Shown: piece after piece, positions 7,781 through 38,025 of the stretch
How positions within the stretch are numbered: position 1 is the stretch's first letter
Layout: every line of letters begins with the position of its first letter
Source: Tolypeutes matacus
Lineage: Eukaryota; Chordata; Mammalia; Cingulata; Chlamyphoridae
Assembly: GCA_026826555.1 (NCBI GenBank)
Contig: JAKSZT010054307.1
Location: 504,259-568,258 of the forward strand
Reading direction: 5' to 3'
Length of the DNA stretch: 64,000 nucleotides
Position numbers and translations under genes: made by a program
The notes under the pieces: generated by a model
The model's input: the letters and a program-made list of their open reading frames with translations, nothing else
What the model was told of the DNA's origin: nothing
Database searches by the model: none

Positions 7781-10700
7781 TCAAATCAGTGAGATCACAC
7801 AATATTTATCTTTTTGTGTCTGGCTTATTTCACTCAACATGATGTCTTCAAGTTTCATCCAATTTGTCGCATAAATCAGGACTTCATTCCTTTTTATGGC
7901 TGAATAATATTCCACTGTGTGTGTGTGTGTGTGTGTGTATACATAAATACATTTTATGTATCCATTCATCAGTTGATAGACACTTGGGTTAATTCCATCT
8001 TTTGGAAATTTTGAATAATGCTGCTAGAACATCATTGTGAAAATTTCTGTTTGAGTCCCTGCTTTCAATTCTTTTGGGTATATACCTAGCAGTGAGATTG
8101 TCAGGTCATACAGTAGTTCTATATTTAGCTTTTTGAGAAATGGCTAAACTGACTTCTATAGTGGCTTCATATTTTACATTGCCACCAGCAATGAATGAGT
8201 GTTCATATTTCTCTGCAGTCTCTCCAACACATGATATTTTCCTTTTTTAAAAATAGTATCCATTCTAATGGGTGTGCAATGGTATGTCATTGTGGTTTTG
8301 ATTTGCATTTCTCTGATGGCTAATAATTTTGAGAATCTTTTCATGTGCTTTCTGGCCATTTGTATATCTTCTTTGGAGAGATGTCTATTTAAATCTTTTA
8401 CCCATTTTTTTAGTTGGGTTGTTTGTCTTTTTGATGTTAAGTTGAAGGATTTCTTTATATGTTCTGGATATTAAATCTTTATCAATATGTTATTTCCAAA
8501 GATGTTTCTCCCATTGTGTAGGCTGTCATTTTACTTTCATGATAAAGTCCTTTGAGGCACAAAAGTTTTAAATTTAATGAGGTTCCATTTATTTATTTAT
8601 TTTTTCTTTTTTTGATTGTGCTAAGTCTAAGAAACCATTACCTAACACAAGGTCCTGAATATGCTTCTCTACATTTTCTTCCAGGAATTTTGATAGTTCT
8701 TCCTCTTATATTTAGGTCTTTGATCCATTTTGAGTTGATTTTTGTATATGGTGTGAGGTAGAGGTCATTCTTTTCTATTGCAAGTGAAGATCCAGTTTTC
8801 CCTGCACCATTTGTTGAAGAGATTGTTCTTTCCTGATTAAGTGGTCTTTGACATCTTGTCAAAAAATCAGTTGGCCATAAATGTGAATGCTGATTTCTGA
8901 GCTCTCGATTTGATTCCATTCATCTATATGTCTGTCCTTGTGCCAGTACCATGCTCTTTTGATTACTGTGGCTTTGTAATATGTTTTAAGATTAGGAAGC
9001 ATGGGTCCTCCAACTTTGTTTTTCTTTTTCAAGATGGCTTAAGCTATTTTGGGCTCCTTACCTTTCCATATAAATTTGATGATTGGTTTCTCCATTTATG
9101 CAATGAAGGTTGTCGAAATTTTGATTGGGATTGCATTGAATCTATAAATTGCTTTGTGTAGTACTGACATCTTAATATCTAGTCTTCCAGTCCATGAACA
9201 TGGAATGTCCTTCCATTTATTTAGGTCTTCTTTGATTTCTTTTAGCAATGTTTTGTAGTTTTCTGTGAACAAGCCCTTTGCATACTTGGTTTGATTTATT
9301 CTTAGATATTTGATTATTTTAGTTGCTACTGTGAATGGAATTCTTTTCTTGATTTCTTCTTCTGATTACTTAGTGCTTGTGTATAGAAACATTACTGACT
9401 TTGGGGTGTTGATCTTGTAACCCACCACTTTGCTGAATTCATTTATTAGGTCTAGGAGCTTCGTTGTGGATTATTTTCAGGATTTTCCATATATAGGAGC
9501 ATATCATCTGCAAATAGGGAAAGTTTTACTTTTTCTTTTCCAACTTGGATGACTTTTATTTCTTTTTCTTGCTTAATTGCTCTGGCAAGAACTTCCAGTA
9601 CAATTTTGAATAACAGTGGTGAAGTGGGTATCCTTGTCTTGTTCCTGATCATAGAAGGAAAGCTTTAAATCTTTCACCATTAAGTAGGATGTTAGCTGTG
9701 GGCTTTTCATATAGGCCCTTTATCATTTGAGGAAGTTTCTTTCAACTCCTAGTTTTCTAAGTGCTTTTTATCAAGAAGGAATGGTGGATTTTGAGAAATG
9801 CATTTTCTGTATAAAGTGAAATGTTTTTTCCTTCATTCTTTTAATGTGATGTATTACATTATGTGATTTTCTTAAAAACTAACCTTGCACATCAGGGATA
9901 AATTCCACTTGATCATGGTATATAATTCCTTTAATATGCTGTTTGATTCAGTTTGCTAGTATTTCATTGAGGCTTTTTTCATTTATATTCAAAGAGGTAT
10001 TGGCCTGTAGTTTCTTTTCTTGTAGTATCTTTATCTGCCTTTGGTATGAGGGTGATATTGGCCTCATAGAATAAATTAGGGAGTGTTCCCTTCTCTTCAA
10101 TTTTTTTGGAAGAGATTGAGGAAAAATGGATTTAAGTCTTCTTGGAATGTTTGGTAGAATTCCCCTGTGAAACCATCTGGTCCTGGGATATCCCTTGTTG
10201 TGAGGTTTTTTATTACTGTTTCAGTACAGTTGTTCATTGTGTCATCTTATAATCCTTTTTATTTCAGTGGAGCAGGTAGTAATGTTTCCCTTTTCATTTC
10301 TGATTTTTATTATATGTAGCCCCTCTCTTTTTTTCTTTGTCAGTCTAGCTAATTGTTTCAAATTGTACTGATCTTTCCAAAGAACCAATTTTTGACTGTG
10401 TTGAGTCTCTCTATTGTTTCTGTTTGTTTTCTATTTCATTTATCTTCACTCTACTCCTTGTTATTTCCTTCTTTCTAGTTGCTTTGGATTTAGTTTGCTC
10501 TTCTTTTTCTAGTTCTTCCAGTTTTGAGGTCAGGTCATTGACTTGAAATTTTTCTTCTTTTTTAATGCAAGTATTTAAAATTTCCCTCTCAGCATTGCCT
10601 TTGCTGTATCTCACAAGTTTGAATATGTTGTATTTTCATTTTCATTCACCTCAATATATTTTCTAATTTTTCTTCTGATTTCCTCTTTAACCCATTGGTT

Positions 10701-15489: not shown

Positions 15490-17890
15490 TAGTTCTCTCT
15501 TACCACATCCTTTCTGGCACAAACCCACAGTAAAGCTTTCTACCAGAGAGAAAGCAACATTTTTAAAAAGGTTTTGTTCAAGATTCTTAGTTGTAGACAA
15601 CAATCTACTCTGGCTATTTGAAGGAGAAAAGAGCGTTATCAAAGAATTTTTTTTTGTTTTTAAAGAATATTAACCCCTCAGAGATATCATTGGGAAGGTG
15701 GAAAGAACAGAGTCAAGTCTAAGCTCACAAAAAAATTAAAAACAAAACGTCACACTTCCCCCCTCCCCTCTCACACACAAACAAACCAAGCAGCAGAACT
15801 TTTCTCAATGAATAAATTCACTACTTCTGCAATCAACACAAGATGTCAGGACCTGATTTCACTGCAGTTGCTAAATGTTATTTCAGTTTCAGGAATTCTA
15901 CCTTGCTCAGTTCCCTAAAACCTGGACACTCCTGAAGCCAGCTATATCAGCAAAATGGAAGCTCTATGCAAAGACGGGTCCTCAAGGTAATATCTTTCAC
16001 TTGGAAGATCACTTAGAAGCAAGGACTGGGGAAGCCTGGGCCAAATGTATCCATCTCGGCTGCAAGAGAAACTGAGCATTTGAATTCTGGCTTCTGAGTT
16101 GAGGAGGTAGGAATTGTTACATGTGAATTTTCCGACATAGAAAGCATATTTAAAAGATGCCACCGGGCAGCCACAAATATGAAATGGGTCCATTATAAAC
16201 CTATTCAAAAGAAATAAGGAGTCAAGGAACACTCCCAGCTGTTTGGCTCAAGGAAGGAGGTAAATGGTGGTATCCTACAAAGAAAGGGAGGGCTGGGGGA
16301 AGAGTAGGTCAGTGCAGGTGATAAGGAGAATGTGAGGTTAGTGTTAGAAGTGTTGGGTTTGAGGTGCCTGTGAGATATGTAAACGGAGGTATTTAATTGA
16401 ATATTTGAGTCTGGGAGCATAGATGAAAGATCAGAATTCTAGAAAATGCCTGGATGGCATCAGAATATAGATGCATTTGGGTCTGTAGGAGAGGAACAGA
16501 TTGTCCACGGAGAGAACACTGAGTGAGAAGAGAAGGTCCATGGAGCCAGGGGGAGATCAGACCAGAGTAGCTGGGTAGAAGAGGAAGAGTCAGCCCTTTA
16601 TTGTTAATGGAACCACAACCTAAGTTCCAAACCTCATGGTCTTCTCCAATCCTCCCTCTTCCTTGACCCCTGCATCTATTCAGTGTCATCATATTGATAA
16701 TATTGGTGACAAGCTAAATCAGGGGTGATGGTGGTCAAGTGAGGTTGTGATAAATTAGAAATTATCAATATACCTGAAACTAAGTGAGCCTTTAAATATT
16801 AATATGAAGCTTGGCTGAAGGAACTGTCCTTGTGTTAAACTGCATCAGTGTGCCTGAAAATAAGAACAAGAGGGATCAAAATCATGTTTTTTAGTATTTA
16901 CAGCTCAACATTTATATTAATCATTTACTAATGAATTTTTAATGATAATAATCCATCATACCATTTGTGTATTATAAAAAGCAACCCTAGGCTTTTCCTT
17001 CCTCTGGTGAGTATATTTTTGAATTTACTAGTGACAAGTAGCATAGCTGGGTGAGCTTTTCTGCAGTGCCAAAGTGGTCCTCTGATCTCTAGGGTTTTCT
17101 GCATAATTAGAAATTTTACACTTTACTCTTGTGTCTTTTCTATTTCCCATTTACCAAAGTGGATGAGAGAAAATTACAAAATGGTGAAAAGAGTTAATGC
17201 AGCTGGTGATAAGTTGGGAAGATGGTCTTAAGTAGGACACTAGGTAGGTAGGAAGAGAGGGGAGAAAGAATAGAAAAGACATAGGATTATTTTGACATTA
17301 TCAGACTTAGTTGAGGTTTGGGGTAATTGAATTGGCTCTGACAAATAGGATGATTGTTGTGAGTACAAGACATCACAGTTGTGTCTCTGATACCTGGTTT
17401 CTACAAATTCTTGAACATGTGCCCAAGGTGTTTTTCCAGTAAAGGAACATGCCTTGAAACTATCAGATGAAGGTGTGCCAGGAACTAGCAACCTCATGAG
17501 TCAGGTGGGCCTGACATTCATTGGCTCATAATGTCAAGGACATGACCTGAAGCTTCAGCCTGGTTTTCTAAATACCAAAAAATATGCATCTTTGGAGAGC
17601 TGATGTTCCTCCACTCAGCCCCAACTTCAATAAAACTGTAATGTCCAAATTTTAGTTGCAGCTTCTTCTCCCTATGTACTGATGGCCCAGAAAAGCTGTT
17701 TGGATGTTTATCTCCATTCTCACACTTGACTTTGGATCACTGGCCAACCCACTACATCTATATTCCAGCTTTGTCCTTTTTTTCCCAAAGAAAACACAAC
17801 ATCCTTCTGAAGCAGGCTAGTAAAGTAGGGAATCAATAGATGGATCTGGAACCTGGCAAAAAGTCCATGTGGATATCCATACCCCTAAGA
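15490..17890. other. No recognised gene or repeat
   Basis: About 2.4 kb without a nameable repeat. Frames of 66-99 codons occur at 15875-16075 plus and 15942-16692 minus. They have no recognisable domain and overlap on opposite strands, which argues against coding. Confidence 0.5.
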
Positions 17891-17905
17891 TGGTTGCTGA
17901 AAGAC

Positions 17906-18366
17906 TGTCACAGGATTCTCCCATTCAGAATGAGATTTCCTCTGGAAGGCAGGAGAAGCCCCATATATTCTCCAGGGGTCTTATCATTGTGCCCCCTGGG
18001 GGATTGATGGGTGGGGTAAAAAATCAAAACAGCAAACAGCTGGAACTCCTCCCATGCCATTAGCAAAGGGGCAGAATAATTAATGGTTTAAAAAGCAAAC
18101 GCAAAGACCTTTTGCTCTCTTGCCTTTTGACCCGTTCTTGCCTTCTGTGCCCTGCTCTCGCCATGTCCCGCCCCCCCCCCCCACTCCCGCATGGATTAAC
18201 ATGCAAGTAAAACCTGGGCATTTATAATCTATAACGGAAAATTGTAGTCTGTAAATTGGTCCTCTTTATCACTCTTCAGCCCCTTCCTTTCTACCTGGGA
18301 CCTATGATCTGTTATTTTCTCCCATTTCTCTTCCCTCCCTCCCTTAAAAAATTGTCAGCCTAATCA
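17906..18366 (+). mobile_element. Probable solo LTR (family unknown)
   Basis: I infer an LTR because its downstream half matches a poly(A)-tailed retrocopy at 35016-35323, and because the parts are in LTR order. There is a U3-like segment from 'tgtcacagg' (17906), a TATA-like 'tttaaaaag' (about 18087-18095), an R-like region with 'gcaagtaaaacctgggcatt', and a degraded polyadenylation signal ('cttaaaaaatt' near 18343, where the retrocopy has AATAAA). The possible end is 'taatca' at 18366. A poly(C) run at about 18170-18181 is local noise. I found no target duplication, so ends are tentative. No internal retroviral genes are adjacent. Confidence 0.55.
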
Positions 18367-18514
18367 ATATGGTGTGCTTTTGAAATTCATTTCTTGCAGT
18401 TTAGCCAAGGACCTAGATGAAATCTGGCTACACTTCTTTAAAAAGTCTTGTGAAGATTGAGACGGGCAGGGTTTGCATAGCAGATTCTGGCCTAAGTGGC
18501 CTGAGCCACCTCTG

Positions 18515-24293: not shown

Positions 24294-24748
24294 GGGAAAT
24301 GGATGTGGCTCAAGCTATTGGGCTCCCATCTACCATATGGGAGGTCCAGGGTTCAATTCCTGGGGCCTGCTGGTGAAAGGCAAGCTGGCCCGAGCAGATA
24401 GCTGGCCTGAGCAGAGAGCTGGCCCATGCAGAATGCTGGCCCGCGCAGGAGTGCTGGCCCACATGGAGAGCTGGCACACCAAGATGATGCAACAAAAAGA
24501 GACACAGAGGAGAGACAATAAGAGACGCAGCAGACCAGGGAGCGGAGGTGGCACAAGAGATTGAGCACCTCTCTCCTACTCCGGAAGGTCTCAGGATTTG
24601 TTCCCGTTGCCGCCTAAAGAGAAGACAAGCAGGCACAGAAGAACACAAAGAGAGTAGGCAGGGAGTGCAAAAAACAATGGGGGGTGTGGCGGTGGGGGGG
24701 ACGGGAGGGGATAAATAAATAAATAAATAAACAAATCTTTAAAAATAA
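24294..24748 (+). mobile_element. Dimeric tRNA-derived SINE
   Basis: Two tRNA-like units in one insertion. Unit 1 starts at 24298 ('atggatgtggctcaagctat', then 'ggttcaattcctgg'). Unit 2 starts near 24541 ('agcggaggtggcacaagaga', then 'ggatttgttcccg'). Between them lie repeated 'gctggcc[c/t]...gcaga' motifs and a 'gagacacagaggagagacaa' linker. The 3' end is (AAAT)n. Flanked by a 15-bp duplication with one mismatch, AAAG[C/T]TTCCACTTGT, at 24279-24293 and 24749-24763. The same architecture is present at 34091 and 37634. Confidence 0.9.
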
Positions 24749-32950: not shown

Positions 32951-33874
32951 AGAAGAATAGCAGAAAGGATAACCAAAAGAGTAAAAAGACAGACAAAAAT
33001 ATGATATAACATATGAAAACCAAAGAATAAAACGGTAGAAGTAAATAGTGCATTTACAGCAGTTTCATTGAATGTGAATGGATTAAAAAACACAGGCTGA
33101 CAGAATAGATAAAAAAACATGAGCCATCCATATGCTGCTTACAAGAAACTCACCTTAGACATAGGAATAGAAAATGGCTGAAAGTGAAAAGCTGGAAAAA
33201 GATACTCCACGTGAATAGTAACCAAAAAAAGAGCAGGGGTAGCTATACTACCAGACAAAACAGACTTTAAATGCAAAAAAATTAGAAGAGATACAGAAGG
33301 CTATTACATATTAATAAAAGGGACAATACACCAGGAAAATATAACAGTCATAAATATCTACGCACCTAACCAGGATGCCCCAAAATACATAAGACAAACT
33401 CTGGCAAAACTGAAGGGAGAAATAGACATTTCTACAATAATTGTTGGAGACTTCAACACCCACTCACATCATTAGATAGAACAACTAGACAGAAGATCAA
33501 CAAGGAAACAGAGAACTTGAACAATATGATAAACAAGTTAGACCTAACAGACATATACAGAACAATGCATCCAAACTCAGCAGATTATATATTCTTCTCA
33601 AGTGCCCATGGATCTTTCTCCAGGATAGACCACATGTTAGGGCCCAATGCAGCTCTCAATATATATAAAAAGATTGAAAGCACAAAGCACCTTCTCAGAT
33701 CATAATGGAATGAAACTGGAAGTCAATTATAGACAGGAAAAAAGTAAATTCACAAATTGTGGAGGCTGAACAACACATTCCTAAATAATCAGTGGGTCAA
33801 AGAAGAAATTGCAAGTGAAATCAATAAAAATTTTGAGAAATGAAAATGAGAACACAACTTATCAAAACTTATGG

Positions 33875-34848
33875 TTGTAAATATTTTTGCTGTCCTGATT
33901 TTGTGATAATCAGGGTAGGCTAAACATTCGCTATATTAGAAACCATGCATGTGCCCCAGACCTAGTTTTTCTCCCTAGGTCTGGTTTTTAGAATGCTGGT
34001 GATAAACTAAGTCTGATTTATTATATGACCATTCTGTATGGGAAATGACTGTAATTCTAGGCATCTTTGGTCAACCTTAAGAGATATAACAGGGAGACAG
34101 ATGTGGCTCAAATGGTTGGGCATACGATTCCCATATGGAGGGATGTGGGTTCAATCCCCTGCATAAACTCCAGGTAAAAATTTTAAAAAGGAAAATATAG
34201 AAGGTGCATCGACTGCCAGTCCCTGTGTGCAGGTGTACCACCAGGCCCCGCGAACAGGTGAGCCCCCCAGGCTCCATGCGCATGTGTGCTGCCAGGGCAC
34301 GTGAGCCATGCAGCAAGAGGATTGATGTAACAGGAGAGTGACACAAGGGAGAGACAAGACAATATGTGCCAAAAAAACAGGAACTAAGGTGGCACAGGCG
34401 GTGGGATGCCTCTCTCCCACATCGAAGGTTCCGAGGATCAAATCCCAGTGAAGAAAGGAGGAGAAGGATGAGAAGGGAGGGCAGGAAACAGACACAGACC
34501 AGTGAAAGGACACAGAAACAGCAAAAACACGGGGGTGGGGGTGGGGTGGGGTAAAATGGATAAAATTAGTAAATAAATAAATAAATAAATAAATAAATCC
34601 TTCAAAAAAAGTATAGGGGGGTAAGATATGGACTATAGTTACTAGTAATACTTTGACGATGCCCTTTCATAATTTGTTTACAGATGTTTCACAACAATGC
34701 AAAGTATCTGTGGTGGGGTGATGTGTGGGAGCCCTGTATGATGTTATGCATGTTTGTTCTGTAAGTTCACAATGTTTACTGAACACTTATTGTTTATGTA
34801 TGTTCATGTATGAATGATGTACTTCAATAAATTGTTGGGAAAAAAGCA
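33875..34848 (+). mobile_element. Unidentified element inserted in L1 ORF2 (with a nested SINE)
   Basis: L1 ORF2 homology stops after 33874 and resumes at 34849, with TATGG at both borders (33870-33874 and 34849-34853), a candidate 5-bp target duplication. Without the SINE at 34091-34620 the element is about 440 bp. It carries a 10-bp perfect hairpin (33956-33965/33975-33984), ends with 'caataaattgttgggaaaaa' and so has a polyadenylation signal near its 3' end. A 5-bp duplication would fit an LTR; the A-rich end would fit a retrocopy or LINE 3' end. Family unknown. Confidence 0.6.
34091..34620 (+). mobile_element. Dimeric tRNA-derived SINE, nested
   Basis: Unit 1 near 34094 ('cagatgtggctcaaatggtt', 'gggttcaatcccctg') and unit 2 near 34385 ('aaggtggcacaggcggtggg', 'ggatcaaatcccag'), linked by 'gagagacaagacaatatgtg' and ending in (AAAT)n. 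It sits inside the element at 33875-34848. A weak duplication (taagatat-like) is at 34078 and 34621; edges are approximate. Confidence 0.85.
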
Positions 34849-35015
34849 TATGGAATGCAGTGAAGGCAGTTTTGAGAGGGAAATTATATAAGCCTTAAAT
34901 GCATTTATTAAGAAAGAAGAAAAAGTTAAACTCAAAGATTTAACTGAACTACTAGAGAAACTAGAAAAAGAACAGCAAACCAATACCAAAGCAAGCAGAA
35001 GTAAAGAAATAATAA

Positions 35016-35277
35016 GGTTCCTCTGCTCCTGCTCCCTGCGGCTCCCGACCTGCTTGGGGCCCTCGTGGCTTTTGTACCCTGCTCTTGCCATGTGCCCCCT
35101 GCACGGACCAACACGCAAGTAAAACCTGGGCATTTATAATCTATAATGGGAAAATGTAGTCTATAAATCAGCCCTCTCTATCACTCTTCAGCCCCCTACC
35201 CTCTACTGGGGACCCATGGTCTGTTATTTTCTCCCATTTCTTTTCTCTCCCTACCTTAATAAATTGCTGGCCTCACT

Positions 35278-35323
<46 letters not shown>
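35016..35323 (+). mobile_element. Poly(A)-tailed retrocopy of an LTR-derived RNA
   Basis: About 262 bp followed by a pure A tract (35279-35326), with AATAAA at 35258-35263, 15 bp upstream of the tail. Flanked by a 13-bp duplication AAAGAAATAATAA at 35003-35015 and 35324-35336 (the A-run blurs the right edge). The body matches the R-like part of the LTR at about 18110-18366 ('gcaagtaaaacctgggcatt', 'tatcactcttcagccc', 'tctgttattttctcccattt'). The inference is that an LTR transcript was copied by L1 machinery. The long pure tail suggests this is one of the youngest insertions here. Confidence 0.8.
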
Positions 35324-35328
<5 letters not shown>

Positions 35329-35717
35329 AATAATAAAGATTTAAGTAGAAATAAAGGAAATTGAGGACACAAAAAACAATAGAAAAAAATCAACAAAACC
35401 AAAAGCTTGTTCTTTGAGAATATCAATAAAATCGACAAACCCCTAGCTAGACTAATAAAGAAAAAAAGAGAGAAGATGCAAATAAATACAATCAGAAATG
35501 AAAGGGGAGAAGTTAAAACTGACCCCACAGAAATAAAAGGAATCATAAGAGGATATTACGAGAAACTGTATGCCAACAAACTAGACAACCTAGATGAAAT
35601 AGACAAATTCCTAGAAATGCACAACCAACCTACACTGATACTACAAGAAATACAAGAACTTAACAAACCAATCACATTTTAAAAGATTGAATCGGTCATC
35701 AAAAAATCTCCCAGCCA

Positions 35718-35822
35718 GGGGGCGGATGTGGCTCAAATGGTTGGGCGTCCGTCTGCCATATGGAGGGACCTGGGTTCGATCCCCGGGACCTCCTGGTAAA
35801 ATTAAAAAAATTAAATTAAATT
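35718..35822 (+). mobile_element. tRNA-derived SINE, monomeric, nested in L1 ORF2
   Basis: 'gcggatgtggctcaaatggt' and 'ggttcgatccccgggacc' mark boxes A and B; short A/T-rich tail (TTAAA units). Perfect 16-bp duplication AAAAATCTCCCAGCCA at 35702-35717 and 35823-35838. The consensus-like box B suggests youth. Confidence 0.95.
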
Positions 35823-37633: not shown

Positions 37634-38025
37634 GGGGCAGATGTGGCTCAAGTGGTTGGGTGTCCATCTGCCATATGGAGGGCCCTGGGTTCACTCCCGA
37701 GGACCTCCTGGTAAAATAAGGTATGCAGGTGAGCCAGGCCCCATTGAGCCACACAACCAAGATGATGATGCAGCAAGGGAGAGACACAGGAGAGAGCCAA
37801 GACAAGACATGCTGGAAACCAGGAACTGCCGTGGCGCAGGTGGCAGAGTGCCTCTCTCCCCCATCGGAAGTCTGTAGAATCCAATCCCCGTGAAGACTGG
37901 AGGAGAAGGATGCAAAGAGAATGTAGGAAACAGGCACAGAGAATCACCCAGCAAACACACAGAAAGCAAGTGAGGGGGTGGAGGGGAGGGAAAAAATTAA
38001 GTAAATAAATAAATCTTAAATTTAA
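37634..38025 (+). mobile_element. Dimeric tRNA-derived SINE, nested in L1 ORF2
   Basis: Unit 1 starts 'gcagatgtggctcaagtggt' (37637), with 'gggttcactcccgaggacc'. The linker contains 'gagagacacaggagagagcc' and unit 2 starts near 37830 ('cgtggcgcaggtggcagagt', 'agaatccaatccccg'). (AAAT)n tail. Perfect 11-bp duplication AAAAATGGGCA at 37623-37633 and 38026-38036. Confidence 0.93.

Follow-up and report, generated by a model that had tools for sequence, protein, structure and literature searches.

A young, poly(A)-tailed retrocopy of a probably LTR-confined RNA in Tolypeutes matacus and its relatives in the same genome

The window that we analysed, a stretch of 64,000 nucleotides from Tolypeutes matacus, carries at 35016-35323 a real, young retrocopy of an RNA confined to one LTR, and this insert is a member of a recurrent class. 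Judging from its anatomy and from its closest relative in the genome, it very probably arose when LINE-1 (L1) recently copied a short Pol II transcript made from a solo ERV LTR. An earlier note on this DNA had suggested that an RNA both starting and ending within one LTR was retrocopied in the manner of L1, and this core idea holds, with tailed and duplicated relatives elsewhere in the genome sharing a start.

The insert and its related LTRs

The polyadenylation signal located 15 bp before a long pure A tail and the 13-bp target duplication, both described in the earlier note, are confirmed (Table 1). A shared stretch of at least 12 bases was met by chance in 2 of ~20,000 random pairs of places within the window. 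The insertion site lies in an L1 for which an empty counterpart is present, namely the minus-strand L1 at 10225-10609, to which the joined flanks of the insert align through one copy of the duplication; the interrupted L1 is older than the insert. The A tail, the duplication and a near-identical parent devoid of a tail (LTR L009, described below) make the insert an L1-type retrocopy, and this anatomy points to L1 proteins as the copying enzyme. U5, the internal region and U3 are all missing from the insert and are present only in other copies. The identity of a Pol III SINE was considered for it and rejected, as no A or B box was found by a simple exact pattern, and no special RNA structure was indicated (z -1.33).

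Table 1. Features of the insert, of its host L1 and of the related LTR in the window
Feature	Position	Strand	Remark
Left target-site duplication AAAGAAATAATAA	35003-35015	+	In host L1; confirmed against the empty site
Extra 5' G	35016	+	T in the near-identical LTR L009 (alignment)
LTR R-region body	35017-35278	+	From 15 nt inside the usual R start to the poly(A) site
AATAAA polyadenylation signal	35258-35263	+	15 nt ahead of the tail
Uninterrupted A48 tail	35279-35326	+	Last 3 A also belong to the right duplication
Right target-site duplication AAAGAAATAATAA	35324-35336	+	Exact 13-bp match to the left copy
Host L1 around the insert	34855-35570	+	Self-comparison; matches the minus-strand L1 at 10225-10609
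Related solo LTR, 625 bp, TG...CA, CTTC/CTTC flanks	17808-18432	+	Limits set by 29 other matching LTR loci
TATA-like TTTAAAA of this LTR	18087-18093	+	Spacing to the R start in relatives
Decayed polyadenylation signal, AAAAAA versus AATAAA in the insert	18346-18351	+	
U5 of this LTR (~66 nt beyond the poly(A) site)	18367-18432	+	Absent from the insert

The earlier note had matched the insert body to an LTR-like element at about 18 kb of the window. That this element is an LTR is borne out by its TG...CA ends and exact CTTC duplications; the limits originally given to it (17906-18366) are too short at both ends, with no duplication there, and our own early guess of 17906-18407 was wrong as well. 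The limits in Table 1 are the commonest begin and end points of matches to 29 other genomic loci; within them the first letters are TGAAGCAG and the last GGCTACA. An exact 4-bp duplication was found at 9 of the 18 LTR loci with both ends aligned (11 of the 29 were dropped due to incomplete end alignment) and, among 39 matches of the insert query, at 10 of the 15 in which the LTR could be recognised at both ends. Exact patterns had no match in contig collections of microbes and viruses, nor did similarity searches of phage and plasmid records return anything.

The match of the insert body to this LTR stands for 18136-18354 (79% in 219 alignment columns; E about 1e-50 within the window) and fails for the first 47 nt of the insert, whose similarity to the LTR is not significant (1530 of 2000 shuffles reached as good a score; 217 of 300 in an anchored test). 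Data from within the window thus cannot tie the 5' start to the LTR, and we rejected the placing of the start site by within-window homology alone. The 18-kb LTR was likewise rejected as the source of the insert, given its 79% identity versus 99.6% for L009, a full U3-R-U5 LTR with one difference in 262 nt; the 18-kb LTR is therefore a relative, not the source. Accordingly, of the origin first proposed, the confinement of the RNA to one LTR is retained, while the likely source becomes L009.

Similar source candidates were found for some other copies consisting of R only. L046 differs from LTR L078 at 3 positions in 311 (99.0%), L099 is nearest to LTR L105 (95.6%, with a few substitutions and 9 gap positions) and L010 is near L009 (97%); for the other R-only copies, identity to the best LTR in the loci compared did not exceed about 93%. 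The flanks of L078 (ATAG/ATAG) and L105 (GTAT/GTAT) are exact, and those of L009 (GACC/CACC) differ at one of four bases. Being flanked by 4-bp duplications, all three LTRs look solo.

As to the neighbourhood of the insert, a block at 33873-34850 also interrupts the host L1. It ends with AATAAA and a short A-run, and a SNORA72-like sequence (33875-34007, 130.7 bits) starts at the break in the L1; the block may be a snoRNA-led chimeric insertion of L1 type into which SINEs were inserted later. Copies of a tRNA-derived-SINE-like repeat occur at 35718-35810, 37634-37719, 34090-34189, 415-507 and 24301-24378, several of them nested in the same L1, and one copy was called tRNA-Gly by ARAGORN.

Related copies in the genome and their shared 5' start

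We queried the genome (3.63 Gb) with the insert and with the R regions of two other copies, L046 and L037, scoring in each case the best 40 candidates (of 1911, 1890 and 2778, respectively). All distinct scored matches of the three R queries, the window included, form a sample of 91 loci, which, consisting of best-scored matches, is biased towards copies resembling the queries. The loci were classed by motif, BLAST and flank reading, partly by eye (L021, L078-L129). The count proposed in the earlier note, when run in the window's genome, gave 67 U3-R-U5 LTRs among these 91 best-scored loci, versus 9 tailed R-only copies beginning at the R start (L010, L018, L029, L037, L046, L080, L094, L099 and L129). 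When the 67 were checked with loose motifs, 66 passed, and L045 had a U3 match. Two of the 91 have a 5' end inside R (the window insert, at +15, and L036), eleven are tailed and contain some U3 (L012, L013, L015, L016, L020, L025, L033, L035, L041, L117 and L122; the class of L016, whose U3 is interrupted, is unsure), and two are R-U5 copies without U3 (L115 and L124).

An exact pattern for the tailed end, AATAAATTGCTGGCCTCACTC followed by seven A, occurs at 10 places in the genome, while its reversed control gave 0. Six of these are R-only copies from the R start (L029, L132 and L134-L137); the remaining four are the window insert, L133 (the last ~40 nt only), and L015 and L122, both with U3. 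Nine of the 91 R-query loci and five of the six new exact-pattern loci thus give 14 R-only copies that begin at the R start. In 10 of them (L010, L029, L037, L046, L094, L099, L132 and L134-L136) the target duplication exceeds all 39 control flanks, whereas those of L080, L129 and L137 were equalled by 5, 1 and 3 of the 39 control flanks, respectively, and a clear duplication, scored in the same way, is absent from L018. It is therefore not the case that all copies carry U3 or lack tails and duplications, the outcome named in the earlier note as contrary to its idea.

What, then, defines the common start? In LTR relatives, a TTTAAAA-like box lies upstream of the start motif CCCCTTCTGCTCC. We scanned 63 loci for the spacing between the two, pooling full LTRs and tailed U3 copies, and in the 42 loci with both recognised the distance from the first T of the box to CCCCTTCTGCTCC was 29 nt in 36 cases, 28 nt in four and 27 nt in two. 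A spacing of 27-29 nt is normal for a TATA box. The 5' ends of the R-only copies are within ~2 bases of the CCCCTTCTGCTCC start point, and 9 of the 14 tailed copies whose 5' end could be placed inside the LTR begin within the same 5-nt interval (P between about 4e-14 and 4e-16, calculated post hoc and assuming uniform starts). These 14 belong to a set of 22 tailed copies; the others are L015 and L016, whose 5' ends were ambiguous, L122, whose 5' end lay outside the retrieved sequence, and five that extend past the LTR on its upstream side. L115, the R-U5 copy, starts at the same site as the R-only copies. L117 counts against a single start, as its 5' end, accompanied by a duplication, lies ~29 nt upstream of the R start, at the TATA box.

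The proposal of a start just downstream of the TATA-like box is hence supported by the other R-only copies and does not apply to the window insert, which begins 15 nt inside R and may be slightly 5'-truncated. An extra 5' G can arise when the cap is copied, and this is offered for the G at the beginning of the insert. Its 3' end conforms to expectation: the body ends at the polyadenylation site of the LTR, as had been claimed. The point of poly(A) addition varies among copies (after CCTCA, CACTC or CACCTGA, on comparing L010, L046 and L099 with the window insert), and cleavage is thus heterogeneous.

We propose the following course of events. The U3 of an LTR would supply the TATA-like box, and transcription would begin at CCCCTTCTGCTCC, ~29-30 nt downstream of it; the transcript would span R (~260-310 nt), with cleavage and polyadenylation after an AATAAA that is also located within R. 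With the start site and the AATAAA both in R, a solo LTR alone would make a complete capped and polyadenylated RNA, upon which L1 proteins would act in trans by target-primed reverse transcription. Transcription from the LTR, L1 as the enzyme and solo LTRs, not proviral 5' LTRs, as the templates are all elements that we infer from sequence.

The box itself is also the apparent site of A-rich insertions in LTRs L085, L093 and L121, and perhaps in L016 and L113. TTTAAAA may be a target of the L1 endonuclease, and insertions there would break the promoter.

Longer RNAs, proviral LTRs and a possible lineage

Longer ERV RNAs seem to have been copied too, as the 11 tailed copies with U3 among the 91 loci indicate. 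The notion of a transcript within one LTR as the copied RNA therefore fits the R-only copies and does not cover these. Five of them (L012, L020, L025, L035 and L041) have in common a sequence upstream of U3, which we take to be ERV internal sequence. L115 runs from R+1 through U5 into a sequence resembling, by eye, that after LTR L069 (about GGAGATTATTGGTRAGTG); this sequence is probably an ERV leader, and L115 itself resembles the beginning (5' end) of a longer ERV copy that was processed.

With such long copies present, and with the window insert and L036 beginning inside R as 5' truncation would have it, one might regard the R-only copies as L1 retrocopies, truncated at the 5' end, of long ERV RNAs ending in U3-R-poly(A), in the manner of HERV-W. 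Truncation should spread the 5' ends, but they are grouped at a single point whose spacing from the TATA box is the expected one, and six of the ten exact tailed-end matches begin at the inferred cap site, so that we consider this explanation very improbable. Another possibility concerns the template: the RNA could come from proviral 5' LTRs if it was polyadenylated prematurely, within R. Every 5' LTR would be expected to carry the start and signal in question, and longer ERV RNA was retrocopied as well, as seen in the five upstream-running copies and L115. On the other hand, the LTRs closest to R-only copies, L078, L105 and L009 (three pairs only), look solo, and a proviral origin seems to us rather unlikely. 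Solo LTRs are thus kept here as the presumed templates.

The earlier note had also raised the idea of a new SINE-like family born from an LTR. In a tree of 103 R cores, of whose 99 inner branches 81 are poorly supported and in which L129 and L132-L137 do not figure, the R-only or R-internal label, carried by ten rows, requires ten changes (shuffled mean 9.7), of which at least four follow from the starred branches by themselves. The scatter of these first ten copies speaks for several LTRs having been copied repeatedly and independently and does not bear out the suggested family; the idea is kept possible by two clusters that were found later. L132, L136 and L137, located at different places, are 97-98% alike, with the nearest LTR among the loci compared at about 90%, and four of their five diagnostic words occur in none of the other loci compared. 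L134 and L135 are 95% alike, and their nearest LTR among the loci compared is at 88-89%.

These clusters would be expected if some R-only copies acted as sources and propagated without an LTR. A single active, unsampled LTR would yield the same clusters, however, so both the repeated copying of one LTR and a genuine R-only lineage would account for them. Moreover, the fifth word of the triplet recurs in L036, L049, L051, L121 and L123, and two words of the pair are shared with L020 and L024, and with L027; on the tree, the R-only rows that it includes lie scattered; three R-only or R-internal copies pair with a full LTR; and a SINE reading is at odds with the insert, which has neither a Pol III A/B box pattern nor U3. 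A SINE-like family is possible, and propagation from R-only sources is, on balance, distinctly unlikely. Repeated copying from LTRs is the reading that we prefer.

Relation to known systems and significance

Processed pseudogenes of mRNAs derive from capped, polyadenylated Pol II RNA, have a tail and a duplication and in many cases reach back to the cap site at full length. The copies described here differ from them in that the parent is the LTR of a transposable element present in many copies.

A close parallel is HERV-W, for which the cited passages describe ERV RNA copied by L1 from the start to the end of R, with poly(A) and duplications of 5-15 bp (PMC5016936; PMC5537654). The processed pseudogenes of HERV-W are alike in origin and in both ends. 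Both ends of this type are found in our 14 R-only copies, the window insert being 15 nt short at 5'. As far as these sources describe them, HERV-W copies have the structure R-U5...U3-R, derived from proviral RNA, with an R of about 70 nt (LTR17 256-326), whereas many copies here consist of R alone, which is ~260-310 nt long, and their source-like LTRs appear to be solo; those of our copies that end in U3-R-A resemble HERV-W. HERV-W is named as the sole HERV group so mobilised (PMC5537654).

The SINE-R of SVA is also similar, being the 3' part, of retroviral origin, of a non-autonomous and L1-mobilised element with a poly(A) end (PMC7353768). SVA is a composite of hexamers, an Alu-like part, a VNTR and a HERV-K part, with hierarchical subfamilies (PMC7353768), while an R-only copy comprises a single R region and nothing else. 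Searches of the open-licence literature for LTR-only retrocopies or LTR-derived SINEs brought up papers on HERV-W and SVA, and among the matches listed no title or abstract opening dealt with R-only copies. The proposed mechanism would combine known parts (ERV RNA copied by L1, a solo LTR promoter and a polyadenylation signal within R) in a way that we did not find described among those matches.

A bolder combination, namely solo LTRs as self-contained genes for a short, capped and polyadenylated RNA copied repeatedly by L1, together with L132, L136 and L137 as an R-only, SINE-like subfamily amplified apart from LTRs, would amount to an LTR turned Pol II SINE; we regard it as doubtful. If the start site and the poly(A) signal are both contained in a long R, any solo LTR can serve as a minute gene that is complete in itself. 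Copying by L1 then preserves, as fossils, the identity of the LTRs with germ-line transcription and the exact start of their RNA, and it offers an observable path from a retroviral LTR to a SINE-like element outside HERV-W.
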